Positions 1,163-25,143 of a DNA stretch of 64,000 nucleotides are shown in pieces. A program made the position numbers and the translations under genes. Below the pieces are notes generated by a model, which was not told the DNA's origin, did no database searches, and worked only from the letters and a program-made list of their open reading frames with translations. Location of the stretch: positions 1 through 64,000 of the forward strand of contig NZ_AUMU01000009.1 of the NCBI RefSeq assembly GCF_000430845.1. The letters run 5' to 3'. Within the stretch, counting starts at the first letter, position 1; each line of letters opens with the position of its first letter. Source of the stretch: Chryseobacterium gregarium DSM 19109 (lineage in GTDB: Bacteria > Bacteroidota > Bacteroidia > Flavobacteriales > Weeksellaceae).

Positions 1163-4100
1163 TTAAAAACCTCCTGAATCCCCGAAGGTAAACGTAGCGG
1201 AAATACCGGCCCTAACCGTTGACAGCGGGAAAGCGGTTGATATTTTATATTTGGAAGTCATCTGCTCATAGAATACCCTCAGGTTTAAGTTTTCGGAAAC
1301 ATTATAGTCGGCGGAAACTTTGATGTTCATCAGCCTCTGGCCTCCCGTTACCTGCGAGTCATCCAACAGAATATTGGTTATGCTTGTTCTGCTGTCTCTC
1401 AGTGAAAAATCTCCCCTGATATTCAAGTCGGTGCCCTTCCCTTTTCCTCTTCCTCTGACATTGGTCATCCCCAACCTGAAATTCCTGATGATATACCCTA
1501 CTCTTACGACATATTCACTGTTTGAATCTTCCGTTAAAGTATGGTTAACCAATCCCAATAATAATGTCCGTAACCGGTTGTACTGAATACCGAGCTGGAT
1601 ATTGTTTCTCATGGTCATATCTACCCCGATCAGTGGTGAGAAATTCTCAACATATCCTACCTGAGCGAAAGTAAATGGATTGATATAATCATCATTGATA
1701 TCCCTCTGGGTAGCATTGAAAGAACTGAGGGAATTGAAATAATCTATACTTGACTGGATTCCCGTTGCCGTATAGGTGGCTTGATAAGCATGCAGGATAT
1801 CAAATTTTGAGAACTGCCCGTTAATGATAGGGACATTCCTCAACCCTGAATAGGTAATCCTCCAGTTCGGAATCGGAAGTCCTGCTTTCTTAGGATTATC
1901 CATCATTTTTACCGTCTTCCCTTCCACTGCTGCACGGAATGCCGGAATTAAAATATAGGCATTTGAAATTCCGTACCCGTCTTTAAATCCGTCCGATTGA
2001 AGAGCTCCCGGCATCTGCTGGGATAAGGTTCTTGCATTTTCCCTGATGGCCTGGTAAATAGCCGTCCCGTCCTGGAATGCTGTTTTCAGGAGCACTACAG
2101 AATTGGTATAAGTAACCAGATCATTGGCAAAAGTATAATCCGGGTTTGAGAGTCCAGTGATCGGATCCCTGTAATTAAATCCGGTATGGGTAAAATTCCG
2201 GTTGTAATTATGTATTGCGCTGAGATCAATCCTCAGATCATTCATCGGCATCACCTGTAAATTGGCCCGAAGTTCCCTCGTTGACATCCGGATGTAAGGA
2301 TCCGTCATAAAATCTGAATCACTGACCCAGCCATTTTCTATAACCGCCCTTCTGATATCCGCCTGTGAACCCAATAAGAACCCTACTGTCGGACCTCCTC
2401 CTGTCTGTCCGTAGCCATACCAGTTCGGAGCAGATAATAGGCCCGGAAGCACCGTTCCGTTATTTTCAGAATAATTAACATCCAATTGCTTGATTGATGT
2501 CAGTAAATATGCCATGCTCTGAAGTGGAGTCAGCCTGTTTTTAAACTTATATTTTTTGTATGCATACCTGTTTTTCTCCCAGGCCTGGGTATAAACATTA
2601 TTCAATGAATCGACCTCCTGCTTACGCTTCTGAAGCTTCGCAGAAACGTTTTTGAAATATTTGAACTGACTGAAGAATTTGGTAAAGTCTGCTGATCCCG
2701 TCGCCTGGATCACGTTGGTATTCTGACCGATTGACCCTAGGTTTCCATCCGGACTTGCCAGTAAAACGGTAGATCTTGCATTCCAGTTATAGGTAAATCC
2801 GTATCCCAGTTCCGCATCAATGAAATCCAGATAAGGAAGATACTGGAACGGCAGCTTGTAGTTCAACTGTACCCTGTGGTTATACAATACCGGCCTTCCG
2901 GCTCTGAATACGTTTCCAAAAATGGACGTATTATCCATGGTATTGACATCCATATTATCGTTCAGCGTTCTGGTAGCGGAATTGATCTCAAGCTTTAAAG
3001 ATTTAGTAAAGTTGAATCCTAAACCATACTGCCATCCGAAATAAAAATTCCTGTTCTTAAGGGCCCCAAAGTCATCTCCATAATTCCCGTTTAGGATAGC
3101 ATCAATATTCCTGAACTCCAGTTCATTGTAATTCCTGTCTACTTCTGTCCTGAAAGAGAATCTCGTAGGAACCGGGTTAAAGTTAAATTCTTTTACCCAT
3201 CTTAAATATTTCGTAGACTTCGCAGTATCGCTGATCATTTTGTTGAACGGACGGATTACCCATGGCTTGAACGTATAGTTGTAATCAACATACCCTCTCA
3301 GATACTGCCTGTAATTTCTTTTTGTGTAAATATCCCTGTAGAAATCGTCATTATAAACAGCCGTTACGGAAATGTTTTCCACATCATAGAATTTCGGTTT
3401 TCTATTCTGGTTCATCCTTTCTTTATGCATGTTTACCACACCGATACTTCTCTGCTGGGTATAAGTTCTTGCTACTTTTTTCAGCTCCTCCCTGTTAGCC
3501 GCTTTCTTAAATTCAACATCGGTATCCAGAGGATTGTACTTCGGATCTTCGATGGTCTGAGAATAAGAATAATTCAACGGGATTTTCACTCCGCTCTTCG
3601 CCGGCAACAATTTATCCACATTCACCGCTGTGTTAATACTGAAAGCTGACTGTGTCGATTGGTTTCTTTCCGCCGGTTTAGAATCAATATTTCCAAAGCC
3701 TACAGAGGTATAGGATGCACTTGTATTTACGGTCGCAAAATCTCCGAGATTGAAGTTTAAACTCGCGTTTCCTGCATATCCTCCGTCATTTTCAATTTCA
3801 GAAAGACGGATTTCGTTGACCCAGAGAATTCTGTCAATCGGTGCTGCACCAAGCTCGCCTCTCGCATAGCCGTTTCTTACCCCGATCATAATTGTAGTAA
3901 CATTCCCCAGACTCGGGCGCCCCTTGATATATAACTTTCTAAAGGTTCCACCTTCATCAAATGAAGTGTCCATGAGCCTTTTTGTAATATCATTAGGATT
4001 ATTTTTATCCCTTCTGATTTTAGCATCTACAAAGTCCTGAATGTTCAAATCCACATCATTTTCCATCGGCCAGATTTCCATTGGTGCCGTTGCTGTTGTC

Positions 4101-7100
4101 GGAGTCATTTTCAAAGCAGATTCATACTCGTAGTAATTATCTGTAGCATCACTTCCGAAACGGATAAAGAACTTAGTGTTCTTATCCAAACCAATTACTC
4201 TGTTCGTCGGATCCTGTGCGTGTACAAAAAGTTTAAGCTTTTTATATCTTCTCATATCAAGAGAAGTATTTTTGAACACCCCTTTTGCTTCTGTAGATGC
4301 TAAATCTTTAACTTTTAAATATAATGAAGATTCATTTTGTCTCTGAGCTCCTGCATTTCCACTCAATATCTGTCTGTCGATTCCCGGAGGCAGTACATAA
4401 GGGGGCTGATTTAATGCATTTTCTTCAATATTCACACTTCCTACCTCCAGATTCTCAATCGTTGTATCATTGTTAAATCCCTCATTGGTTGCAGGATCAG
4501 CCTGAGTATTACTTCCAAATACCGCAACATTTTTAGGATACTTTCTCCAATCCGATCTTACAAGATCCATCGTTCCGAATCTTAAGGTCGAAGTCTGGTC
4601 AAAACCTTTTAATAATAATCTTGCAAAGCGTACATTATTTAAAACCGAAGGATCAGCGTCACCTGCAGTGGTCACATATTGTGAAACCGGAATTCTGAAC
4701 AAATACCATTTTACCTGTGAAGTCTGACCATTCTGGAAGGTTGCCTGAACGGTTTTAATATCAACAATATTATTATTTGATCCTAAAGTTAAGCTTCCCG
4801 GCGCCAAATCCACTTCATACTGGTTATAGCTTTCACTCTGGTCCAGGTTGTAATCTTTATTGATATCTTCTGCATCCGGAGTCTGTGAAGCTACTTCCAG
4901 AGAGTTGCTCTGTGAGTTGCCTTCAGGCCCCCTGAAATATTTGTATCTCTGGATAACGGACGAAGCCTGGTTCCCTGTAAAGCGGTCAGACATATAGAAT
5001 ACAAAATCATCTACTGCCGGATCAGATAAATTCGTCACCGGATTGATGAATGTATTTCCGAATAAAGCCGCTTCCTGATCTGAACTCAAGCCGTCATAAC
5101 CCAAATCCTGCGCTACCCTGTCCTCCCCTTCACTGGAGAAAGCATATAAAATCGGCGGCTGCTTAGGCTGGGTTCCCCAGTTTGAGCTTGTGGTGGTTGA
5201 CGAGGCCGAAGCTGTCGGCAATCCGTTTTCGTACTGCATCTGTCCGTCTTTCAGAACATCCTCGGATACATTCCCTAACTGTAATAAAAGTTTTGGAGCG
5301 GCACCCAGTGTATTTCCATCGGCATAAGGATCCATCATCCAGAATTCTACATATTCAATATTAGAATTCACAAAATTGGAAACCGAAATCGGTCTCATGA
5401 TCCCGGCCCATCGCTGTGCCGTGCTTTCGGTTGCCGGGTTTGAGTTGTAAGGTCCTTTTTCTGTAGGATAATAGGAAATATCGAAAGTATTCGTAAATGT
5501 CTGTTCACCCGCAACAAAATCACGGTTGTTGAAGATTTCGGAAAACTGAACCCTTCTTGAGGCGTGATTAGACACTGACTGTGGTGTAATACCGGTCGGC
5601 GCTTTTCCTCCTACTCCCCAGAATCTCGGGTCGATGTTGTACCATGATAACAAACCTCTTCCATAACCTTCTCTTATGTCATTATTTTTTCCGGCTCCTG
5701 CAAAAAGAGGATCCGACTGGTTTCTTTCAGGTTTCGAAGCCAGGCTCCAAGCTGTCGGTTCCTTTAAAGTAATTTTTGAGGTGGTCTGTTCGAAATCATC
5801 AATATAAGACTGATCATTGATTCCTTTATTGAGTCCCGGAAGCAGATAAGCGGCTTCCATTTTGAAGTTCAGATTTGAAGGTGCTTCGGTATTGACCAGC
5901 GGGATCTTATCCGTTAATCTGGTCAGGAACGGGAGCTGGTTGTTGTACATCAGATTGATACCGGCCATGGTATTGTTTACGGCTTCCTGACCGTAATTTA
6001 CTTTCTGGGTCAGCGGAGACTCGGAATAATTGACAACGGTTCCGCCTAAAATAAAGTTTTCATTAAACCTTCTTTCTAAATTCACTCCCAGAAAGCGTTT
6101 TCTCTGGGTATTGAAAGTCAGTTGATTTTCCAGTGAAATATTAATCGCCTGACCTGATTGTTTTACCTGGTCATTAATAATCGTTACGGTTCCCAGCATG
6201 TAATCCACGGTATAGTCGATTCCTTCTGTCAGCTGTACGCCGTTTGCAGAAACTTTTACTGAACCCTGCGGAACATTCACAGCCCCTAATGAGATTCCCT
6301 GGCCCTGGGTTCCTTTATACCGGCCTTCAATGGTGTAACGCTGCGCCAGATTACTGGAAGTAGCCACCTGCTTCTGCTGGTTATACAAGTCTGAAAATAC
6401 ATACTGAGGATCGTTACTTCCGATCACATTCTGAATAAAGCTTCCGAAAGGCTGAACTTTGGTAAAGATCACCTTCCCGGTTTCCGGCCTGATGGTAATG
6501 CCGTTGACAAAGTCAAAAATACCGTCTCCGGTTGACCCTCCGTTATTCTGTAAATCCCCGTTGGCATTCAGCCTGTCCCAGTTTAATAATTTAATTAAAG
6601 GCTGGCTCCGGATCTGCTCGTTATTGTTAACCGGAAGATAATTTACCTTACCTCCGGACTGGGGATCCCTGTATAAAACGTTCAGAATAAATCCGTCCTG
6701 GTTTACCTGTCCGGCATCCAGGGAATAGATGTTTTTCATCATCAGATTCCACATCGGAGAAGAGGTCTTTACGGTCGTGTTCGGTTTTAAGAGCTTAGTT
6801 ACCAAAACCGTACTTTCTTCAGAGAATTCCCCTACTTTATACACCTGGTTGCTTCCGTTTACCGTGTAGGAAAATGAAACTCCCAAAAGCTGGTTGTCAT
6901 TCAGTCTCTGGTTTAATGAAATGTACCCTAACTGCGGCTGAACTATATATTCGTTCTGATTTAATCTTCTTGCTTTCTTGTTAAAAATAAAATGCTCTCC
7001 GTCTACATACGGTTCCGTACCTCCTGAAGAAACCGGAAGATTGGCGCCCTTGATTGCATTATAGGCTGTACTCGCATCCCTGAGTCCGGGTAAACCGTTC

Positions 7101-8269
7101 ACTGTAGAATACAGATTCAAACCCGGCTGATCATTATTCGGCAGAATGCCCGGAGCATCCCCTAAATCCCTGATCCCGACAATACTTTTCTGATATTGTA
7201 AATTACTGTTCCCCTGATCCAATACCCAGACTTCCATCCTGGTGATGCTTATTTTTGAGTTGATCTGAGGATAGTTCAGCAAGGAATTATCATAACTGTC
7301 AAGGAAATAATGTCCTATAAAATAATGCTGGTTGTCTTCATAATCAATGGCATTCAGCTTGAAGTTATTCAGGACGCCGCCGCCCTGAACCGTAATATTT
7401 CTTGCTTCTCCCTGCTGTTGGGATAAAACCACCGTCCCATATGTTTTTCCCATCTGAAACTCGGTCTTCACCCCAAATAACGACTGGGAACCGCGTATCA
7501 AACTGGTTGACAGCGGCATATTCACGTTACCGAATTCTACTCTTTTAATGATTTTATCTTCTCCTCCTGCACTCGGCTTATCCACATCCTGGAGCCCTTT
7601 CTGCTGAAGGTCTTTCCAGCTTCCTTTAGCCTGCCAGACCAGGTTCATCCTGTTCTCGAAGGCAAAACCACTCTGGGTATCATAATTGGCTTTCAGCTGG
7701 AGGTTTTCTCCTACTTTTCCTAATAAACCCAACTGGATCCTCTGGTCGATATCAAACGTAAAGCTGGTTCTGTTCTGTGGCAGAATCAGAGGGTTGTCAA
7801 TCTTTTGATATAATCCGCCGAAATCAAACGAAGCATATCCCGAAGGAATAATTTCAATCTTATTGCTTCCGAAAATGGTTTCAAAAAGCCTGTTGTTGAT
7901 CTGTAAGGAAGGAATCAATCCTTTTCTTGCCGCATCGCTTTTGTCTTTCCTGAACATCAGACTGTAGCGGTCTGATTTTTCCTTGTAATAGGCACGCGTC
8001 TGTTCCGCCATCATGAACTCCTTATAATCTTCAGGAGACATGGCAGTCGGTGGCCCGGTTATTGTATTTCCTACTTTAGGATATACGAAATACATCCCTG
8101 TTTTTATATCATAATAAGCCTCATACTGTGTAGGATCGGCCAGTTGATAGTCTTTTTTTATGATCGCTGTGTCACGGACCGGCGGTCTCTGCTGTGCAAA
8201 AGTAAATACTGATACACATAAAAACGACAGGAACAAAAATATGTTGAGATACTTATTATTTGCCACCAA
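1163..8269 (-). CDS. sprA: Cell surface/T9SS translocon protein SprA
   Basis: Giant outer-membrane protein of 2368 aa, the size expected for SprA (Sov). SprA forms the outer-membrane channel of the type IX secretion system and is needed for gliding and protein secretion in Flavobacteriia. The N-terminus has a signal peptide ending near FTFAQQRPP. The rest is rich in aromatic, Asn and beta-strand-like repeats such as GGTVVNYSESPLTQKVNYG, and the protein ends with alternating beta-strand residues (SATFTFGDSGGF), as in outer-membrane barrels. The start is non-ATG: TTG at 8269, or GTG at 8266, three to six bases after the ruvA stop, so it is probably translated with ruvA. The ruvA-sprA-gcvH order fits what I recall of other Flavobacteriia. 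Confidence 0.95.
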   Translation of the reverse strand: MVANNKYLNIFLFLSFLCVSVFTFAQQRPPVRDTAIIKKDYQLADPTQYEAYYDIKTGMYFVYPKVGNTITGPPTAMSPEDYKEFMMAEQTRAYYKEKSDRYSLMFRKDKSDAARKGLIPSLQINNRLFETIFGSNKIEIIPSGYASFDFGGLYQKIDNPLILPQNRTSFTFDIDQRIQLGLLGKVGENLQLKANYDTQSGFAFENRMNLVWQAKGSWKDLQQKGLQDVDKPSAGGEDKIIKRVEFGNVNMPLSTSLIRGSQSLFGVKTEFQMGKTYGTVVLSQQQGEARNITVQGGGVLNNFKLNAIDYEDNQHYFIGHYFLDSYDNSLLNYPQINSKISITRMEVWVLDQGNSNLQYQKSIVGIRDLGDAPGILPNNDQPGLNLYSTVNGLPGLRDASTAYNAIKGANLPVSSGGTEPYVDGEHFIFNKKARRLNQNEYIVQPQLGYISLNQRLNDNQLLGVSFSYTVNGSNQVYKVGEFSEESTVLVTKLLKPNTTVKTSSPMWNLMMKNIYSLDAGQVNQDGFILNVLYRDPQSGGKVNYLPVNNNEQIRSQPLIKLLNWDRLNANGDLQNNGGSTGDGIFDFVNGITIRPETGKVIFTKVQPFGSFIQNVIGSNDPQYVFSDLYNQQKQVATSSNLAQRYTIEGRYKGTQGQGISLGAVNVPQGSVKVSANGVQLTEGIDYTVDYMLGTVTIINDQVKQSGQAINISLENQLTFNTQRKRFLGVNLERRFNENFILGGTVVNYSESPLTQKVNYGQEAVNNTMAGINLMYNNQLPFLTRLTDKIPLVNTEAPSNLNFKMEAAYLLPGLNKGINDQSYIDDFEQTTSKITLKEPTAWSLASKPERNQSDPLFAGAGKNNDIREGYGRGLLSWYNIDPRFWGVGGKAPTGITPQSVSNHASRRVQFSEIFNNRDFVAGEQTFTNTFDISYYPTEKGPYNSNPATESTAQRWAGIMRPISVSNFVNSNIEYVEFWMMDPYADGNTLGAAPKLLLQLGNVSEDVLKDGQMQYENGLPTASASSTTTSSNWGTQPKQPPILYAFSSEGEDRVAQDLGYDGLSSDQEAALFGNTFINPVTNLSDPAVDDFVFYMSDRFTGNQASSVIQRYKYFRGPEGNSQSNSLEVASQTPDAEDINKDYNLDQSESYNQYEVDLAPGSLTLGSNNNIVDIKTVQATFQNGQTSQVKWYLFRIPVSQYVTTAGDADPSVLNNVRFARLLLKGFDQTSTLRFGTMDLVRSDWRKYPKNVAVFGSNTQADPATNEGFNNDTTIENLEVGSVNIEENALNQPPYVLPPGIDRQILSGNAGAQRQNESSLYLKVKDLASTEAKGVFKNTSLDMRRYKKLKLFVHAQDPTNRVIGLDKNTKFFIRFGSDATDNYYEYESALKMTPTTATAPMEIWPMENDVDLNIQDFVDAKIRRDKNNPNDITKRLMDTSFDEGGTFRKLYIKGRPSLGNVTTIMIGVRNGYARGELGAAPIDRILWVNEIRLSEIENDGGYAGNASLNFNLGDFATVNTSASYTSVGFGNIDSKPAERNQSTQSAFSINTAVNVDKLLPAKSGVKIPLNYSYSQTIEDPKYNPLDTDVEFKKAANREELKKVARTYTQQRSIGVVNMHKERMNQNRKPKFYDVENISVTAVYNDDFYRDIYTKRNYRQYLRGYVDYNYTFKPWVIRPFNKMISDTAKSTKYLRWVKEFNFNPVPTRFSFRTEVDRNYNELEFRNIDAILNGNYGDDFGALKNRNFYFGWQYGLGFNFTKSLKLEINSATRTLNDNMDVNTMDNTSIFGNVFRAGRPVLYNHRVQLNYKLPFQYLPYLDFIDAELGYGFTYNWNARSTVLLASPDGNLGSIGQNTNVIQATGSADFTKFFSQFKYFKNVSAKLQKRKQEVDSLNNVYTQAWEKNRYAYKKYKFKNRLTPLQSMAYLLTSIKQLDVNYSENNGTVLPGLLSAPNWYGYGQTGGGPTVGFLLGSQADIRRAVIENGWVSDSDFMTDPYIRMSTRELRANLQVMPMNDLRIDLSAIHNYNRNFTHTGFNYRDPITGLSNPDYTFANDLVTYTNSVVLLKTAFQDGTAIYQAIRENARTLSQQMPGALQSDGFKDGYGISNAYILIPAFRAAVEGKTVKMMDNPKKAGLPIPNWRITYSGLRNVPIINGQFSKFDILHAYQATYTATGIQSSIDYFNSLSSFNATQRDINDDYINPFTFAQVGYVENFSPLIGVDMTMRNNIQLGIQYNRLRTLLLGLVNHTLTEDSNSEYVVRVGYIIRNFRLGMTNVRGRGKGKGTDLNIRGDFSLRDSRTSITNILLDDSQVTGGQRLMNIKVSADYNVSENLNLRVFYEQMTSKYKISTAFPLSTVRAGISATFTFGDSGGF

Positions 8270-17296: not shown

Positions 17297-18802
17297 ATGC
17301 TTTTGGATAAACTCATCAACTATCTCAAACTAGACAAACAGGAGTTTCTATTTCAGTTCAATTCACATCCGAATTACCCTTCAGCCTTAGCGTTCAGTGA
17401 TACCCTAAATTTTATGGGCGTAAGAAATGATGCATATGAACTGGATAAAGAATATTGGGATGAACTTCCGGAAGAATTCATAGCGATCGTTGACAATTCT
17501 TTCTCTTTGGTAAAAAAATCCGGCAACCAATATTCAGTTTATTCAGATAAAGCAAAAACGCTGGACAAAACGGAACTGCATCAAAAATCTACGGATTTTG
17601 TTCTTTTATTTGAAAAGGAAAAAACAGAAAGCCATTCAGCAACTAATTATAAACCGTTTATATATGCCGTTTTCGCGATAACTTTGATCTACTCGCTGTT
17701 AAATCTGGTTTGGTATGAAGCTGTTTTCAATCTGCTTTCATTAGCAGGAGTTTATATTTCATTAGAAATTTTCAATCAGAAATTCGGAAATACATCGGCC
17801 GTTATCGGAAGTATTTGTGGTGATACGGCTGGCAGCCAAAGTGTGAATTCATGTAATAAGATTATTACTCAGGACAAAACAAGCATTCTCGGATTAAAAT
17901 TTTCAGATTTCTCTTTAATTTATTTTATCGGGCTCACCGTTCTTGGCTTATTTCTGCCCGCAACATCTTTTATTATTAAAGGGTTTACATTGGCTTCAGT
18001 AATTGCAATCGGTTACTCAATATATATTCAGGGTATTGTGGAAAAAACCTTTTGCCGTGTATGCCTTTTAATTATTACAGTTCTGGCAGCTCAGTTATTC
18101 ATCGGAATATTTCTTTTTGACAATCTGTATTTTGATATGAAAATCGCTTTGTTAAGCCTTATTTTATGGATTGCTGCTTTTTCTTTAATTCTATATGTCA
18201 ACAATACGCTTGAACAAAAAGAAAATTTACAGAAATCAAATGCAAAAAATTTGAGATTTAAAAGAAATTATGATCTTTTCAAAAGAGAACTTCTGGAAAA
18301 TGAAAAAATAACGTTCACTGATACAGAAACTTTTTTTGTTGGAAATAAAGAGGCAAAACTTCATCTTTCCATTGTTTCAAACCCCTATTGCGGCTTTTGT
18401 AAAGATGCTCATAAAATTATGGAAAACCTTCTGGAAAGATATCCCAACGATATTTCTGTGCAGATGAGGCTCAACTATTCTCCGGATCCTAATAACGAAA
18501 AATCGACCAATCTGTTCTCTGATTTTATGCATACCTATAAGAATAAATCTGCCAAAGAATTCTTAGACCTGGTAGAATATTGGTTTGAAACCCGTGATGA
18601 AGAGAAAACGAGAAAAAAAGCAGGGATGATATCAGGAAGTGAAGATCTTACTCCGTTAATCAATATTTCTGCAGAGAACAGGAATGCAGGTCTTAATTTC
18701 ACACCGATTATTTTGGTTAACGGATATCAGTTCCCTGACAAGTATGAACGTGAAGATATTTATTATTTTATCGATGAGCTGACGGAAGATGAGGAAATTT
18801 AA
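17297..18802 (+). CDS. VKOR-thioredoxin fusion with degenerate C39-like N-terminal domain
   Basis: Predicted disulfide-bond-forming membrane enzyme of 501 aa. Residues about 1-105 resemble a C39 peptidase fold but lack the catalytic Cys and His (HPNYPSALAFSDTLNFMGV where the Cys motif would be). Residues about 118-302 form a vitamin K epoxide reductase domain with several helices, the loop cysteines C174 and C186, and the active-site C253-R-V-C256. After a basic linker, residues about 340-500 form a DsbA/thioredoxin-like domain with C365-G-F-C368 and a later TP cis-proline region (NFTPIILVNG). The fused VKOR would reoxidise the thioredoxin domain using a quinone. As the first gene of the cysteine-rich peptide locus it probably oxidises the exported peptides. 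The degenerate C39 domain might hold precursors, which is inference. Confidence 0.88.
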   Translation: MLLDKLINYLKLDKQEFLFQFNSHPNYPSALAFSDTLNFMGVRNDAYELDKEYWDELPEEFIAIVDNSFSLVKKSGNQYSVYSDKAKTLDKTELHQKSTDFVLLFEKEKTESHSATNYKPFIYAVFAITLIYSLLNLVWYEAVFNLLSLAGVYISLEIFNQKFGNTSAVIGSICGDTAGSQSVNSCNKIITQDKTSILGLKFSDFSLIYFIGLTVLGLFLPATSFIIKGFTLASVIAIGYSIYIQGIVEKTFCRVCLLIITVLAAQLFIGIFLFDNLYFDMKIALLSLILWIAAFSLILYVNNTLEQKENLQKSNAKNLRFKRNYDLFKRELLENEKITFTDTETFFVGNKEAKLHLSIVSNPYCGFCKDAHKIMENLLERYPNDISVQMRLNYSPDPNNEKSTNLFSDFMHTYKNKSAKEFLDLVEYWFETRDEEKTRKKAGMISGSEDLTPLINISAENRNAGLNFTPIILVNGYQFPDKYEREDIYYFIDELTEDEEI

Positions 18803-18849
18803 TAAAAATAATTTTCGTAATATAATATTCACTAAATTAGGAAAAAATT

Positions 18850-18882
18850 AAGCGGAATCCGAAAAGCTATATAGAGTAGGAA
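18850..18882 (+). promoter_or_regulatory. Putative structured leader element, copy 1
   Basis: AGCGG-AAT-CCG-AAAA-GCT followed by GAGTAGGAA lies 20-50 bases before the first precursor. It can form an outer AGC/GCT stem (18851-18853 with 18866-18868) and an inner CGG/CCG or GG/CC pairing. The same layout occurs at 37341-37374 with GGC/GCC as the outer stem, a compensatory change that argues for RNA structure. A weak -7-like TAAATTAG lies at 18833-18840. Ligand or protein partner unknown. Confidence 0.5.
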
Positions 18883-18902
18883 AATAAAAACAACTTATTA
18901 CT

Positions 18903-19079
18903 ATGAAAAATCTAAAAAAGATTTCAAGAACAAATCTAAAATCTGTAAAAGGGGGAATTACAGAAGAATGTGCAAGAGCTCAAGCAACGATGACTTGTTT
19001 TTCAACTTTAAGTGCTTGCCAGGCGGGTATTGAAATTGATGATCTCTGTCTAAAAGTGTGTAACAAATATTGTCGTTAA
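18903..19079 (+). CDS. Cysteine-rich double-glycine leader peptide precursor 1
   Basis: A 58-aa secreted peptide precursor. Residues 1-18 (MKNLKKISRTNLKSVKGG) are a double-glycine leader of the kind cut by C39 peptidases. The 40-residue core has six cysteines: C23, C32, C39, C49, C53 and C57, ending CNKYCR. From memory the leader matches those of small bacteriocin-like proteins of Chryseobacterium. It lies 100 bases after the VKOR fusion and upstream of the C39 exporter, so it is a likely exporter substrate and would carry up to three disulfides. No modifying enzyme is nearby. Antimicrobial activity is inferred only from the context. Confidence 0.82.
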   Translation: MKNLKKISRTNLKSVKGGITEECARAQATMTCFSTLSACQAGIEIDDLCLKVCNKYCR

Positions 19080-19083
19080 ATAA

Positions 19084-19250
19084 AATACGAAGGTAGAATT
19101 TAAATCTATAAAAGGAGGAATTTCCATTGAATATGTATCAGCTAAAGCTTTTTTTAAACAATATTAGCTTGTCAATCTGATACGAACTCAACAGATTCTA
19201 ATTTCAGATTTTTGTATTGCCAACGTTTTTGTAACAAGTATTGTTATTAA
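19084..19250 (+). pseudogene. Decayed precursor peptide gene
   Basis: Remnant of a paralogue of precursor 1. The frame at 19084 reads NTKVEFKSIKGGISIEYVSA and stops at TAG (19165-19167). Shifting frame at 19167 gives ACQSD... and then FCNKYCY and a TAA at 19248-19250. This aligns with precursor 1 over the end of the leader (LKSVKGGI) and over ACQ...CNKYCR. The leader start including the ATG is lost and a frameshift splits the core. It sits directly between the two intact precursors and suggests past tandem duplication. Confidence 0.75.
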
Positions 19251-19260
19251 CATATTTTAG
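19228..19260 (+). promoter_or_regulatory. Possible internal promoter before precursor 2
   Basis: TTTG at 19228-19231, 21 bases, then TATTTTAG at 19253-19260, the same -7 variant seen at 17276-17283. The ATG is 22 bases downstream. It would allow extra transcription of the second precursor and the exporter. Confidence 0.4.
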
Positions 19261-19281
19261 AATAAATCATAAAATTAAACT

Positions 19282-19482
19282 ATGAAAAATTTAAAAAAGA
19301 TTTCAAGAGAGGGCTTAAAATCAGTAAAAGGAGGCACCAAGGAAGGATGTCCTGGACCTAAATCACCATATTACCGTCCGTATGCATCACAGGAACAATG
19401 TGAAATTGCAACAGGAAAAACTTGTTATTATTCAGAGGACAGCTATTGCTTTCCTGCAGGATGGAATGCTGATTTACTATAA
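19282..19482 (+). CDS. Cysteine-rich double-glycine leader peptide precursor 2
   Basis: A 66-aa precursor. Residues 1-18 (MKNLKKISREGLKSVKGG) differ from precursor 1 at only two leader positions. The core is unrelated: rich in Pro, Tyr and Gly, with four cysteines at C23, C40, C48 and C56. The constant leader with variable core is the pattern of peptides sharing one C39 exporter, which follows 145 bases downstream. Up to two disulfides are possible. A hairpin lies between this gene and the exporter. The product's activity is unknown; bacteriocin-like is the best guess. Confidence 0.85.
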   Translation: MKNLKKISREGLKSVKGGTKEGCPGPKSPYYRPYASQEQCEIATGKTCYYSEDSYCFPAGWNADLL

Positions 19483-19551
19483 TTTCTTAATTTGATAAAA
19501 TCTATTATTGTTTTGATAATTATAACAAAATTTATAGTTTTATAAAAATTA

Positions 19552-19577
19552 AATGTCGTCAAAATATTGACGACATT
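19552..19577. terminator. Hairpin between precursor 2 and exporter gene
   Basis: A perfect 11-bp stem AATGTCGTCAA/TTGACGACATT with loop AATA, but no T run follows (CTAATAAAA). It may partly terminate or stabilise the precursor mRNA ahead of the exporter gene at 19628. Confidence 0.5.
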
Positions 19578-19627
19578 CTAATAAAATATCAAAATATTTC
19601 TTATCTATCGGAACGCTTTAATATCAA

Positions 19628-21826
19628 ATGATTTCAAAACAATTTCCTTTCTACCGCCAGCCCGATTCCAAAGACTGCGGCCCTACCTGCCTTCGTATTG
19701 TAAGTAAACATTACGGTAAAAGCATCTCCTTACAACAAATCCGGAACCTTTCAGAAACAACCCGGGAAGGAAGCAGCCTGCTCGGCTTAAGTGATGCTGC
19801 AGAAGATCTGGGATTCCGCTCATTGGGCGTTCAGATCAACTTTGAGTCCCTTGCTGAAGAAGTTCCGCTTCCGTGCATTGTGCACTGGAATAAAAACCAC
19901 TTTGTGGTGGTTTATAAAATCGATAAAAACAATAAAATATATGTCTCAGATCCGGGCTATGGCCTGATCACGTATTCCCGTGAAGAATTCATTAAGCTTT
20001 GGATCGGTGAGAACGCAAATGAAAAAACAGAAGAAGGGATTGTACTTATTTTAGAGACCACTCCTGCTTTTTTCCAGTCTGAATTTGATGATCAGGAAAG
20101 CAAGGCCAGCTTCAGTTTCCTTTCAAAATACCTGCTGAAGTATAAATCACTTGTTATTCAGCTTGCCGTAGGACTGTTAGCGGGAAGTTTACTATCCCTT
20201 ATACTTCCGTTTCTTACGCAAAGTATTGTCGATGTCGGGATTCAGAATCAGGATCTGAATTTTATTTACCTGGTCCTGTTAGCTCAGATCATGCTTTTCC
20301 TTGGCAGAATGGGTATCGAAGTAATCCGGAGCTGGATTTTACTGCACCTTTCCGCAAGAATCAATATTTCTATCATTTCCGATTTCTTTATTAAATTGAT
20401 GAAACTTCCCATCAGTTTTTTTGATACGCGCATGACCGGAGATATTATGCAGCGGATCAATGACCATCACAGGATCGAGCAACTGCTGACCAGTTCTTCG
20501 CTGAATACTCTATTTTCATTAGTGAATCTCGTTATTTTCAGCATTGTCCTTTTATTATATGATTACAGGCTGTTTGTGGTCTATCTGGTGGGCGCTGTTG
20601 CCTATATCGGATGGATCAGTTTTTTCCTTGGCAGAAGAAAGGAACTTGATTACAAAAGGTTCTCACAGGTTTCACAGGAACAGAGTAAAGTGATCGAACT
20701 TATTAACGGCATGCAGGAGATCAAAATGCACAATGCCGAAAAGCAGAAACGATGGGATTGGGAATTTCTACAGGTTAAACTATTTAAAATCAGGATTAAA
20801 TCACTTTCACTGGAGCAGTGGCAATCTGTAGGAGGAAATTTCATCAATCAAATGAAAGATATCCTGGTGAGCTTCCTGTCTGCAAAACTTGTTCTCAGCG
20901 GGAATTTAACGTTGGGGATGATGCTTTCCGTTCAGTACATCATCGGCCAGCTGAACAGTCCTTTGCTGCAGCTGATTGATTTTATCAAACAGACCCAGGA
21001 CGCCAAGATTTCCCTTGAGCGATTAGGCGAAATCCATGATAAAGAAGATGAGGAAAATAAAGATGAACAATATTCGCACGACCTCCCTCAAAAAGATATT
21101 GAAGTAGAAAACCTTTCTTTCAGATATATCGGTTCCGATGCATTTGTTTTCGAAAATCTTACCCTGACTATTCCTTATCAAAAAACGACAGCTATTGTGG
21201 GAAGCAGCGGGAGCGGGAAAACAACACTTTTAAAATTGCTGATGAAGTTTTATGAGCCTACCCAGGGAGATATTAAGCTTGGCAATACAAAACTTAAAAA
21301 TATTTCACCGAGATTCTGGAGGGATCATTGCGGTGTAGTGATGCAGGAAGGATATGTGTTTAATGACACGATAGCCAATAATATTGCGATAGGCGAAGAT
21401 TATGTGGATAAAAATAAACTCAGAAGAGCTGTAGAGATTGCCAATATTAAAGAATTTATTGAAGAATTGCCTTTAAGTTACAATACGAAAATCGGAAACG
21501 AAGGTCTGGGCGTAAGCGGCGGCCAGAAGCAAAGATTATTTATTGCCAGAGCGGTTTATAAATCCCCGGAATACATTTTCTTCGATGAGGCTACTTCCGC
21601 TTTAGATGCCAACAATGAAAAAGTCATTATGGAAAACCTTGAACAGTTTTTCAAAGGTAAAACCGCTATTGTCATCGCCCACCGGCTTTCTACGGTAAAA
21701 CATGCCGATAAAATTATTGTTCTTGATAAAGGTAACGTCGTAGAAGAAGGCAGCCATACAGAACTGGTAGCGTTGAGGGGCGAATATTACAGACTGGTAA
21801 AAAACCAACTAGAATTAGGAAACTAA
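19628..21826 (+). CDS. Peptidase C39 domain ABC exporter (peptidase-containing ABC transporter)
   Basis: An inner-membrane exporter of 732 aa that removes double-glycine leaders and transports the core. Residues 1-140 are a C39 peptidase with catalytic C17 in DCGPTCL, H91 in NHFVVVY and D108 in VSDPGYG. About residues 155-460 are the six-helix transmembrane domain. The C-terminal ATPase has Walker A GSSGSGKTTL, signature VSGGQKQRL, Walker B IFFDEATSALD and the switch histidine in IAHRLSTVKHADK. All active residues are present, so it should be functional. The neighbours, three GG/GA precursors and an HlyD adaptor, fit a type I-like export route. It would need a TolC-type outer-membrane partner, which is not in this window. 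Confidence 0.95.
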   Translation: MISKQFPFYRQPDSKDCGPTCLRIVSKHYGKSISLQQIRNLSETTREGSSLLGLSDAAEDLGFRSLGVQINFESLAEEVPLPCIVHWNKNHFVVVYKIDKNNKIYVSDPGYGLITYSREEFIKLWIGENANEKTEEGIVLILETTPAFFQSEFDDQESKASFSFLSKYLLKYKSLVIQLAVGLLAGSLLSLILPFLTQSIVDVGIQNQDLNFIYLVLLAQIMLFLGRMGIEVIRSWILLHLSARINISIISDFFIKLMKLPISFFDTRMTGDIMQRINDHHRIEQLLTSSSLNTLFSLVNLVIFSIVLLLYDYRLFVVYLVGAVAYIGWISFFLGRRKELDYKRFSQVSQEQSKVIELINGMQEIKMHNAEKQKRWDWEFLQVKLFKIRIKSLSLEQWQSVGGNFINQMKDILVSFLSAKLVLSGNLTLGMMLSVQYIIGQLNSPLLQLIDFIKQTQDAKISLERLGEIHDKEDEENKDEQYSHDLPQKDIEVENLSFRYIGSDAFVFENLTLTIPYQKTTAIVGSSGSGKTTLLKLLMKFYEPTQGDIKLGNTKLKNISPRFWRDHCGVVMQEGYVFNDTIANNIAIGEDYVDKNKLRRAVEIANIKEFIEELPLSYNTKIGNEGLGVSGGQKQRLFIARAVYKSPEYIFFDEATSALDANNEKVIMENLEQFFKGKTAIVIAHRLSTVKHADKIIVLDKGNVVEEGSHTELVALRGEYYRLVKNQLELGN

Positions 21827-21872
21827 TTAATATTTCATTAAATTTAAATAACCAACTCAAAATCTTATAGTT

Positions 21873-22076
21873 ATGAGAAATTTAAAAAAAATTGAAAGAA
21901 AGAACTTAAAAAATGTGTATGGCGCAGGCCCGGTTCCTGTAGTCCCATGCAATTGTTTCTGCTTCATCAATGACGTTAAGCAGTGGAGTCCCTGCAACCG
22001 ATACTGCCCCGGCGGAGTAATCCCGGGAGTAGAGACCGGTAATGATCCCAAATGTAATTATACATTACCATCGTAA
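21873..22076 (+). CDS. Cysteine-rich leader peptide precursor 3 (Gly-Ala cleavage site)
   Basis: A 67-aa precursor with leader MRNLKKIERKNLKNVYGA. It ends in Gly-Ala rather than Gly-Gly, which C39 peptidases commonly accept. The core is rich in Pro and Gly with six cysteines at C26, C28, C30, C41, C45 and C61, including a CNCFC cluster. It lies 46 bases after the exporter gene and is followed by a strong terminator-like hairpin before the HlyD gene. Its core is unrelated to those of precursors 1 and 2. Function unknown; likely another disulfide-rich exported peptide. Confidence 0.82.
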   Translation: MRNLKKIERKNLKNVYGAGPVPVVPCNCFCFINDVKQWSPCNRYCPGGVIPGVETGNDPKCNYTLPS

Positions 22077-22096
22077 CGATTATTTTTTAGAACCTG

Positions 22097-22133
22097 CTCA
22101 ATAATCTTCACCATTGAAGATTATTGAGTTTTT
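22097..22133 (+). terminator. Intercistronic terminator/attenuator before hlyD-type gene
   Basis: A perfect 14-bp stem CTCAATAATCTTCA/TGAAGATTATTGAG with loop CCAT, followed by TTTTT. It ends 6 bases before the HlyD ATG, so read-through, not a new promoter, must supply the HlyD mRNA. It probably lowers adaptor expression relative to precursor 3. Confidence 0.8.
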
Positions 22134-22139
22134 AAGTAT

Positions 22140-23438
22140 ATGGAAAAAGACATTTTAGACAATATAGAACTTCGCTCAGAAAGCGTTCAGGATATCCTTA
22201 CCCAACCGCCTCACTGGATGATCCGCTGGGGAAATACCATTATTCTTTTAATCCTTGTTCTCATTATGATGATGAGTTATGTGATCAAATATCCGGAATT
22301 CATTCCCGCACCTATTGTGGTAACATCTGAAAACCCGCCGGAAAAACTGGAAGCAAGAACCAATTCTAAAATTGAAAAAATATTCATCAAAAATCACCAG
22401 GAAGTTAAAAAAAATGATGTTTTGATGGTGATGCAGTCTACAGGAAATTACAAGGATATTCTGGAATTAAAAAAAATAATTGATTCAATAAATCCCAACC
22501 GATTATCCTCTTTCCCTGTAAATGAGACCACCCATTTCAAATTAGGTGAATTGCAGGGCGACTACAACAGCTTTGCAAAGGCGTTTCAGGACGAAGCCTT
22601 ATTTACCAGGCTTCAGCCTTATGCCCCGGAAAATCTTGCGGCCAATCAGAGTCTGTCGGAATATAGGGTCAGAATTGCCACTTTAAAGCAGCAAAAGAAC
22701 CTTGAACAGGCAAAATATGATCTAACCAGAAAAAGCTACCAGCGTTCTCAGGAATTATATAATCAGGGCGTTATTGCGGCACTGGAACTGGAAAATGAAA
22801 AAATAAAATATATTCAGGCTCAGCAGAATCTGGAAAATATTGCCCTTTCCCTTTCTCAGATTGAAGAAGGAATCTCCAATCTTAATAAGACCAAAAGCGG
22901 AACTGCTATTAATACGGAAAAAGATAAGATCAATTATTCATCCCAGACCTTGCAGCTGTTTGAGCAGCTGAGAAAATCTTTAAAGCAATGGGAGCAGAAT
23001 TACCTCGTGATTTCCAATACGGATGGCGTGGCAAGTTTTCAGCAGTTTTTCGGTGAAAACCAGTTTGTAAAAGCCGGGGATGCCATTTTATCCATTCTTC
23101 CTAAAAGCAGGGACAAGATTGTAGGCAGAATGTCTGTTCCCGCCACAAATTCCGGTAAGATCGTAGCGGGAGAAAAGGTGTTGATCAAGCTGGATAATTA
23201 CCGCTACCAGGAATATGGTATTGTAGAGGGGAAAGTTCAGAACATCTCGCTTTCTCCCGATAAAGACGGTAATTATTATGTAGACGTAATTCTCCCCAAA
23301 GGCTTGAAAACCTCTTACAACAAAAATCTGACTTTTGACAAAGAGTTAAGAGGGAATGCGGAAATTGTCACACAGGACTTAAGACTTATTGAAAGATTCT
23401 TCTACCAGATGAGGAAACTTCTGGGATATCAAAGCTGA
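22140..23438 (+). CDS. HlyD family secretion adaptor
   Basis: A periplasmic adaptor of 432 aa linking the C39 ABC exporter to an outer-membrane channel. A short cytoplasmic N-terminus is followed by one membrane helix (TIILLILVLIMMMSYVI, about residues 33-50), then the first half of a lipoyl-like domain (EKIFIKNHQEVKKNDVLMVM), a long coiled-coil hairpin (about residues 170-290) and the second half with the beta-barrel (ILPKSRDKIVGRMSVP). This is the order expected for HlyD-type adaptors of bacteriocin exporters. It is the last gene of the locus and ends at the terminator at 23470-23496. Confidence 0.92.
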   Translation: MEKDILDNIELRSESVQDILTQPPHWMIRWGNTIILLILVLIMMMSYVIKYPEFIPAPIVVTSENPPEKLEARTNSKIEKIFIKNHQEVKKNDVLMVMQSTGNYKDILELKKIIDSINPNRLSSFPVNETTHFKLGELQGDYNSFAKAFQDEALFTRLQPYAPENLAANQSLSEYRVRIATLKQQKNLEQAKYDLTRKSYQRSQELYNQGVIAALELENEKIKYIQAQQNLENIALSLSQIEEGISNLNKTKSGTAINTEKDKINYSSQTLQLFEQLRKSLKQWEQNYLVISNTDGVASFQQFFGENQFVKAGDAILSILPKSRDKIVGRMSVPATNSGKIVAGEKVLIKLDNYRYQEYGIVEGKVQNISLSPDKDGNYYVDVILPKGLKTSYNKNLTFDKELRGNAEIVTQDLRLIERFFYQMRKLLGYQS

Positions 23439-23856: not shown

Positions 23857-25143
23857 TTATTTTAGCTTAAAATATTCCAAAACATCACCCACATGCTCTG
23901 GCTTGCTGATTATCTTATTGTTAGCATCCAAAATAAAATAGGTTGGAGTGGCATGAACATTATAGGTCTCTGCATAAGTACTGTTCCAACCTCTCAGTTC
24001 AGAATCATTTACCCAGGGAAAAGCACTGATCTTTTTGGAATAAGAATCTTTATCCATATCCAGAGACAGCCCTACTACCTGGATATTCTTAGCTTTTAAA
24101 TCATTATATTTTGCCAATAACTGAGGCAGTTCAGTTTCACAGTGCGAACAGGTAGACGACCAGAATACGATAACCTTTTTGTCCGCTTTAATCGCATGAA
24201 TTGTTTTAGCGGTAGTGTTCACAGGCGACTGGAATTTATAATCAGGAAAAACAGCGCCCATTTCCACGTTGGCATTAGATTTTAAGGTGGTAGCCAATCT
24301 GTCGGTAATGGTACATTTTAAATTCTTGGCGAGACCCAGATATTTATCCTTAAATTCCTGCATATCGTAGACATCAAAAATATCAATCAGCTCAGAAAGT
24401 ACCGTCTGTCCCCGTGGGGTTTCAACTTTCAACCGGTCCAACAGCTTATCTACAGAAGCGGATACGTTGGTATTTCCTCCGGTATTAAGATATGATACTA
24501 AAATAGGTCTCAGCAGAGATGATGTTTCAAGCATGTCATTAGACTTGTCTATAAAGTTAATGATTTCCTCCTGATTTACCTTTTTAGAGGCATCTGCAGA
24601 AAGGTATTTGCTGTAATTGGTATTGTAATAATAGATGAACGGATGCTGAGCCTGATCGATTCCCTGTGAGCCGCCTGACAGCCTGTCGATCTCAGTCTTC
24701 AGCGCTTTTCCGAATTCCGTGTTGTCTTTATAATATTCTTTGATCTGGGAAAGAGCCGGAAGAATGAGTTCTTTTTTCTGGGACCCTTCCTGAAGTCCGT
24801 TCATAAGGTTATTAGACTCATCCAGATAAATAATGTTTTTAATTTTATTGGCCTGTGTTTCAAGTTTAACGTTTACATTTTTATTTTCTGAAATAAAATT
24901 GAATGTATTATTGGAACCGGGAAAATAGACTTTCATCATCCCCATATAATTTTTCGGGTATTTAAAAGTCCAGGTATTCCCTTTACTCTGCTCTTTCGAG
25001 AAAATAATATCTTTGGAACCGTTTAAAGTATATAGAATAGCATCTGGGTCTTTGAAATCAGCAGGAGCCTGAATAGTAACTGTAAACTGAGCCTGCAATG
25101 AAAATACAGCTAAGAAAGCTGATAATGTAAAAATCTTTTTCAT
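23857..25143 (-). CDS. TlpA-like thioredoxin domain protein
   Basis: An exported 428-aa protein. A signal peptide (MKKIFTLSAFLAVFSLQAQ) is followed by an N-terminal region of about 300 residues, resembling the DUF4369-type domain often joined to TlpA in Bacteroidetes, and a C-terminal thioredoxin-like domain. The redox motif is in FWSSTCSHCETELPQL, and a later HATPTYFILD gives the cis-proline. It probably reduces or oxidises disulfides in the periplasm. It lies just after the peptide export locus but in the opposite direction and behind a tRNA, so a link to that locus is not supported. Confidence 0.85.
   Translation of the reverse strand: MKKIFTLSAFLAVFSLQAQFTVTIQAPADFKDPDAILYTLNGSKDIIFSKEQSKGNTWTFKYPKNYMGMMKVYFPGSNNTFNFISENKNVNVKLETQANKIKNIIYLDESNNLMNGLQEGSQKKELILPALSQIKEYYKDNTEFGKALKTEIDRLSGGSQGIDQAQHPFIYYYNTNYSKYLSADASKKVNQEEIINFIDKSNDMLETSSLLRPILVSYLNTGGNTNVSASVDKLLDRLKVETPRGQTVLSELIDIFDVYDMQEFKDKYLGLAKNLKCTITDRLATTLKSNANVEMGAVFPDYKFQSPVNTTAKTIHAIKADKKVIVFWSSTCSHCETELPQLLAKYNDLKAKNIQVVGLSLDMDKDSYSKKISAFPWVNDSELRGWNSTYAETYNVHATPTYFILDANNKIISKPEHVGDVLEYFKLK

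Follow-up and report, generated by a model that had tools for sequence, protein, structure and literature searches.

A conserved VKOR fusion and C39 exporter locus of Chryseobacterium proposed to mature and export dispersed cysteine-rich double-glycine peptides

Introduction

The bacteroidetocins (proposed class IIf, Coyne 2019) are, among described systems, the nearest to the locus reported here, a set of genes for a VKOR fusion protein, cysteine-rich peptides and a C39 exporter in Chryseobacterium gregarium DSM 19109. According to the sections of the bacteroidetocin study cited here (PMC6671954), one locus encodes a cysteine-containing peptide with a double-glycine (GG) leader, a thiol oxidoreductase and a C39-type ABC exporter, activity falls when the oxidoreductase is deleted, and the peptides kill Bacteroidales, with no obvious immunity gene. 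Two other precedents concern parts of the machinery: the C39-like domain (CLD) of the exporter HlyB recruits cargo (cited passages of PMC6363468), and inverted VKOR or DsbB enzymes form disulfides in the E. coli cytosol in CyDisCo strains (cited passages of PMC5471842, citing Hatahet and Ruddock 2013). The locus occupies positions 17297–23438 of the window, the whole stretch of DNA that was analysed, which makes up the opening 64 kb of contig C8 (211 kb) in a genome of 4.44 Mb. We regard it as a probable maturation and export hub, conserved in the genus, that would serve dispersed cysteine-rich peptides in trans, guided by their leader, and would oxidize them before export.

Like the bacteroidetocin loci, the hub is found in Bacteroidetes and holds a thiol oxidoreductase and a C39 ABC exporter with cysteine-containing GG peptides, and because those loci already combine thiol oxidoreduction with C39 export (PMC6671954, as cited), the pairing is not new in Bacteroidetes; the claim that this is the best candidate for an undescribed system, which the preliminary description of this DNA had based on that pairing, has to be given up. 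The differences lie elsewhere. Bacteroidetocin leaders are described as 15–16 aa long, compared with 18 aa at the hub; a separate five-transmembrane (five-TM) protein accompanies the thiol oxidoreductase there, whereas the hub encodes one C39-like/VKOR/thioredoxin chain, and no further open reading frame (ORF) of the five-TM protein's size lies within 17297–23438 on either strand. There is about one bacteroidetocin per region (36 in 35 regions), in contrast to a genome-wide peptide set, and an HlyD gene lies inside the hub, while the cited sections of the bacteroidetocin account mention none (PMC6671954). Membership of class IIf was considered and rejected on leader length and the separate five-TM gene, two features that define the class in those sections.

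The leader family has already been catalogued by NCBI, and the bacteriocin label is NCBIfam's too: the models NF047798 (leader_Chryseo) and NF047792 (CCPGW), both for putative bacteriocins, have the same leader and cover the peptide only. The fusion shares with ordinary VKORs and with the Synechococcus VKOR-thioredoxin protein a VKOR core with four conserved cysteines, and with the latter also a thioredoxin domain, but those proteins have neither a C39-like domain nor the extra helix described below, and their charge bias is opposite. Its N-terminal domain resembles the HlyB CLD as a predicted C39 fold without the catalytic cysteine, although the CLD is part of an exporter and the domain here part of an oxidase (PMC6363468, as cited). 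The inverted CyDisCo enzyme is engineered (PMC5471842, as cited), whereas the hub fusion would be natural and substrate-addressed if the orientation proposed here holds. What is new is the cysteine-free front end with a predicted C39 fold, followed by an extra membrane helix, and the reversed charge pattern; these features, and some 30 further precursors, had been missed in the preliminary description. Among the matches listed in a search of the open-licence literature (titles and abstract openings), no paper connected double-glycine peptides with either VKOR or a C39-like oxidase fusion.

Gene content and precursors

All genes of the hub lie on the + strand, and Pfam and NCBIfam searches bore out the gene set first read from the ORFs. 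The fusion (17297–18802, 501 aa) is followed by precursor 1 (18903–19079; 58 aa, 18-aa GG leader, six core cysteines), precursor 2 (19282–19482; 66 aa, GG leader, four), the exporter (19628–21826; 732 aa), precursor 3 (21873–22076; 67 aa, GA leader, six) and an HlyD-type periplasmic adaptor (22140–23438) scoring above the HlyD_3 cut-off; the core cysteine counts are those given previously. The Peptidase_C39 (19643–20008), ABC membrane and ATPase domains of the exporter each score far above their Pfam cut-offs, and the active-site stretches DCGPTC, HFVVV and DP are, by eye, intact as had been noted, so that a C39 domain with catalytic Cys, His and Asp is fused to ABC membrane and ATPase domains, as in PCAT/AMS exporters. 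Lanthionine, radical-SAM and ATP-grasp domains were absent from the hub proteins scanned, in agreement with the earlier view that no other modification enzymes are involved, and no immunity gene was recognised at the hub in the ORF list or the domain scan.

The hub precursors score 36.5, 35.6 and 23.9 bits against NF047798, all above its curated cut-off of 23.5 but the third barely so, and all three fall below the cut-off of NF047792. Their leaders measure 18 aa up to GG/GA, and the near identity claimed for them holds for two (MKNLKKIS...VKGG), while the third, MRNLKKIERKNLKNVYGA, is only related. In the genome as a whole the leader model finds 34 matches at E ≤ 1, spread over 12 contigs; of the 23 that reach E ≤ 0.001, three are at the hub and 20 elsewhere. 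DNA was fetched for 30 of the 34, and each of these opens a short ORF of 44–81 residues, with at least four core cysteines in 29. Across 60 sampled genomes of the genus, 56 carry leaders at E ≤ 0.001 (6–45 per genome), while in 14 control genomes the model found none at this threshold and none above the cut-off, two matching at E ≤ 1. About 30 cysteine-rich precursors of this genome thus appear, from their sequences, to share one leader tag recognised by one machine.

Leaders were chosen regardless of cysteine content, yet core cysteine counts are nearly always even. Hub precursors have four or six in 133/133 cases (124 unique cores), and the count is even in 28 of the 30 fetched from C. gregarium (the other two have five). 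Among 40 non-hub precursors, taken from 27 other genomes, 39 have even counts and the remaining one ends early; these 40 were drawn from the best-scoring listed leaders, so weak leaders are unrepresented. When the 194 unique cores were grouped by single linkage into 42 families, 40 representatives were even, against 21 expected (p = 2e-10 versus one half), and 39 families were even throughout; in 20,000 simulations the number of even representatives never exceeded 33. Even counts are what full pairing of cysteines predicts, and the precursors are therefore very likely disulfide-bonded, as had been proposed for the hub peptides. Some non-hub cores carry a CCPGW motif, noticed by eye.

Linkage of hub and leaders in the genus

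Gene order was compared in 80 named loci, kept from 110 relatives of the fusion, all of them Chryseobacterium or Weeksellaceae records; three end at a contig edge and were left out of the count, and the 77 long enough all show VKOR, C39 exporter and HlyD in this order on one strand (77/77). Between these genes lie zero to seven precursors with varied cores, and 16 of the 77 hubs have no internal precursor by the strict leader pattern used. One domain scan covered 38 loci, 20 of them hub loci (L065–L084).

A close homologue of the fusion is present in 57 of the 60 genus genomes. Leaders and hub occur together in 56, the hub without confident leaders in one, neither in three and leaders without the hub in none (Fisher p = 1.2e-4), which is the co-occurrence that the preliminary description called for. 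The single exception (G029) does contain two weak leader ORFs, each with GG, one having six cysteines and the other four. Two genomes, G011 and G057, have no match to the fusion, and clpX, the TlpA-like gene and the DUF3810 gene are in place with the hub missing between them; at E ≤ 1 they have six and three weak leader matches, none above the cut-off and most in long frames, which we take as noise, although two in G011 (E = 0.49 and 0.67) lie in frames of 56 and 42 aa. The third, G053, has a match of only 25% identity and no such leaders. Its hub-type exporter and HlyD (locus L099) are retained, but the VKOR fusion and the GG peptide found with them are of another kind, and two TlpA-like proteins are also present by eye; modules appear to be exchanged. 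In G038, a single-contig genome counted among the 57, the gene for the fusion is broken into two frames (L083, 3417–4921), by sequencing error or recent decay.

The preliminary description saw the locus as self-contained, a view that the 20 of 23 confident leaders encoded elsewhere contradict, since these need service in trans. The C. gregarium genome yields a single VKOR match and none to DsbB; its C39 matches comprise two full exporters plus a C39-like fragment. Sixteen of the 60 genus genomes combine the hub with exactly one C39 match and yet carry 6–42 leaders each (median 17.5); this sole exporter adjoins the hub VKOR in 15 of the 16 and lies on another contig in G018. With many leaders to one VKOR and few exporters, the hub must serve precursors in trans, barring a route unknown to the models, and we infer that the dispersed precursors use it in this way. 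The second full C39 exporter of C. gregarium (G000:C2:249839-252037; L085 6840–9038, minus strand) is about 48% identical to that of the hub; its neighbours include, by eye, one thioredoxin-like and one outer-membrane-like gene, and no VKOR is found there.

Domain architecture of the fusion protein

Two Pfam domains pass their cut-offs in the fusion, VKOR with 36.2 bits against 27.5 and Thioredoxin_4 with 42 bits against 23.2. The VKOR core (17711–18205, + strand; aa 139–303) has four helices, a loop cysteine pair (Cys174 and Cys186) and a CxxC motif (253–256), as in the VKOR family, and residues 138–281 superpose on residues 17–158 of the Synechococcus VKOR (Z 13.2). The thioredoxin domain (18296–18799, + strand; aa 334–501) is of DsbA/ScsC type with a CGFC motif at 365–368, and superposes on ScsC (Z 14.4). 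Cys174, 186, 253, 256, 365 and 368 are invariant in 18/18 aligned fusions.

The first 108 residues (17297–17620, + strand) are predicted to form a degenerate C39-fold domain. In hhalign comparisons this part matches exporter C39 domains (Prob 85, E = 6e-6, 97 collinear columns), while the VKOR and thioredoxin parts, used as controls, score under 1. Since a Foldseek search with the whole fusion returned only thioredoxin proteins at the top, with the first C39-bearing chain at rank 38, the N-terminal domain was modelled and searched alone. The AlphaFold2 (AF2) model has a predicted local distance difference test score (pLDDT) of 83, and ranks 1–20 are exclusively C39 or C39-like chains, with Z scores of 11.2 (PCAT1), 10.9 (LahT with bound leader) and 10.4 (the HlyB CLD). 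The first 110 aa are free of cysteine in 47/47 genus fusions, and the domain therefore cannot be a C39 peptidase; on the predicted structure it is a C39 fold without catalytic cysteine, that is, a CLD. Positions 1–60 are the best-conserved part of the fusion, with 65% invariant; the figure is 22% in 61–105, and for the VKOR core and the thioredoxin part it is 27% and 24%, respectively. The N-terminal domain also includes a conserved SHPxYPS stretch. A C39 domain that is dead yet conserved, encoded in the same locus as cargo with C39-type leaders, is most simply explained as a leader reader, and we propose that it binds the leader without cutting it. In a Parabacteroides distasonis plasmid record (L333, 6475–8020), the C39-like piece, annotated as a C39 domain protein, and the VKOR-thioredoxin piece occupy two separate frames that overlap, and a Cys-rich GGG ORF lies upstream of them.

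Membrane orientation

Between the N-terminal domain and the VKOR core, AF2 places an additional helix (TM0; aa 118–136, 17648–17704, + strand) where 28 control VKORs have an alignment gap. The N-terminal domain has no signal-like stretch (median best 15-residue hydropathy 1.03), and one extra helix after a domain without a signal would turn the VKOR core over in the membrane. Charge distribution points the same way. By the positive-inside rule, Lys and Arg are expected on the cytosolic side, and in 31 fusions (18 from Chryseobacterium, 13 from seven other genera) they average 7.6 on the catalytic-face loops and 1.3 on the opposite loops, whereas in the 28 ordinary VKORs the values are 1.6 and 6.2. 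The bias is reversed in 31/31 fusions and 0/28 controls, with no overlap; densities flip too, and although the loops were drawn wide enough to include Lys and Arg at helix ends, a narrower count gives the same direction. The catalytic side of the fusion thus most likely faces the cytosol, as judged from these predictions.

The controls comprise 22 proteins from the same phylum and six cyanobacterial ones, the latter taken from 13 plasmid records with a VKOR match. The 22 come from 30 VKOR loci, of which L307 and L326 proved to be fusions already counted under other ids, and L303, L312, L313, L315, L318 and L319 were left out because of unclear starts or extra regions. Of these eight set-aside proteins, the four with TM0 are reversed (L315, L318 and the two already counted), while among those without it three are ordinary (L312, L313, L319) and one is neutral (L303). 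L315 (genome G063), a 161-aa VKOR-like protein, lacks a C39 domain yet has an additional first helix and the reversed charge bias, and is perhaps another flipped VKOR.

Occurrence in other genera

At E ≤ 1e-20 the fusion occurs in 33 of 296 phylum genomes, belonging to 12 of 139 genera. Among 20 fusion loci fetched from outside the genus, 14 have a C39 exporter within the fetched stretch. Many of these loci hold sets of short Cys-rich ORFs with repeated leaders of their own, such as MLKNILNLEGAQKLTKNEQKSINGG and MEFLNVLSREEMKNVKGG; the ORF pattern demanded at least two cysteines, and no parity claim is made for them. On an Aureibacter tunicatorum plasmid (L334, a 615-kb record), the fusion, two Cys-rich GG ORFs, a C39 exporter and HlyD occur in hub order.

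Proposed mechanism and alternatives

In the scheme that we propose, every precursor carries the common 18-residue double-glycine leader, which the cysteine-free C39-like domain would hold uncut, much as the HlyB domain recruits its cargo, while the VKOR and thioredoxin parts of the same chain would form two or three disulfides in the core and, from what is known of these families, hand the electrons to quinone. As leader reader and oxidizing face would both be cytosolic, catalysis would take place on that side and the peptides would probably be oxidized ahead of export. The precursor would then pass to the C39 exporter and be cut after GG or GA, and the core would leave with the help of HlyD, presumably through a TolC-like pore, TolC being the partner of HlyD; precursors from the whole genome would use the hub in trans. 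We lean, with some caution, to the wider view that a membrane-flipped natural VKOR with a leader-reading domain oxidizes tagged peptides from across the genome while they are still in the cytosol, cleavage and export by a single exporter coming afterwards, and that this occurs across Bacteroidota.

Several observations weigh against this scheme. At E ≤ 1, Pfam gives no C39 match in the fusion, and two papain-like protease toxin domains nearly equal the C39 scores of the N-terminal domain (Z 10.3 and 9.4). AF2 models the fusion as a whole with modest confidence (pLDDT 73.5; predicted template modelling score, pTM, 0.43), the TM0 stretch exceeds a hydropathy of 1.6 in 26 of the 31 fusions and is weaker in the other five, the positive-inside rule is a statistical one, and the cytosol is normally a reducing compartment. 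In a midpoint-rooted tree of one gene, the three genomes without the hub fall outside those that have it, and the co-occurrence within the genus may therefore represent a single evolutionary event. The genome with the split VKOR gene (G038) keeps 42 leaders, though the split may be a sequencing error; the pairing of a hub-type exporter with another fusion in G053 means that exporter and VKOR are not strictly tied; and six of the 20 fusion loci in other genera have no C39 exporter in the fetched stretch, one of them being a 6.5-kb contig.

The strongest competitor regarding the site of oxidation, which we think rather unlikely, keeps the hub but places the VKOR-thioredoxin face in the periplasm, so that peptides would be cut and exported in reduced form and oxidized as they emerge. 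Known VKORs face outward, as do natural VKOR-thioredoxin proteins of known orientation, and the thioredoxin part resembles the periplasmic ScsC/DsbA proteins. Natural inverted DsbB-type enzymes have been proposed in archaea. A periplasmic face would imply either that the C39-like domain is periplasmic, in which case 117 aa without a signal sequence would have to cross the membrane, or that TM0 does not span it. It would also need inner loops poor in Lys and Arg in all 31 fusions, a pattern seen in none of the controls, and the set-aside proteins, reversed with TM0 (L315, L318) and ordinary or neutral without it, speak against it too. It is improbable that the fusion is a general cellular disulfide machine that lies near an exporter by chance: as the only VKOR match in a genome without a DsbB match it could be taken for one, but the gene order is fixed in 77/77 loci, the fusion is joined to a C39-fold domain, it is absent from two near-complete genomes that also lack confident leaders, and most of the other-genus loci (14/20) have a C39 exporter in the fetched stretch, in many cases along with Cys-rich GG ORFs. 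That the locus is a self-contained bacteriocin operon of three peptides, as the three precursors inside the hub might suggest, is very improbable; this reading was rejected on gene counts, with leaders across the genome against one VKOR and few C39 exporters, and some hubs have no precursor by the strict pattern.

What the peptides do is a separate matter. The products are probably antibacterial, and it is possible, though not the reading we would choose, that this same machinery turns out signals, metal binders or host-directed peptides rather than bacteriocins. No immunity gene was recognised at the hub, up to 45 leader matches occur per genome, and the bacteriocin assignment comes from family labels only; yet the nearest tested analogues, the bacteroidetocins, kill Bacteroidales and likewise have no obvious immunity gene in the cited sections (PMC6671954), and the diversity of the cores fits an arsenal.

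Should the proposed scheme hold, it would show a Gram-negative bacterium controlling dozens of unlike disulfide-rich peptides with one machine, the common leader labelling each cargo and an inactive protease domain delivering the oxidase to it: a substrate-addressed oxidative folding, with one leader as the ticket for both oxidase and exporter. A cytosolic face would contradict the usual picture, in which quinone-linked disulfide formation in exported bacterial products occurs outside, and would offer a natural part for cytosolic production of disulfide-rich peptides, the leader serving as the handle. The scheme would also give a route to peptide discovery, through any leader-bearing short ORF in a hub-bearing genome.

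Neighbouring genes

The hub is flanked upstream by a DUF3810 gene and downstream by a convergent gene for a TlpA-like thioredoxin protein (23857–25143, minus strand) and by a gene that, by eye, we take to be clpX. The TlpA-like gene is a conserved neighbour of doubtful hub membership; because it is kept where the hub is absent, at the empty sites and in G053, it was dropped as a needed part. TlpA-like proteins adjoin the fusion in G053 (by eye) and in some loci of other genera (L143, L145 and L146), and may be linked to it there. SprA, a large protein of gliding and type IX secretion, is encoded at window positions 1163–8269, 9 kb upstream on the opposite strand, and is unrelated to the hub.

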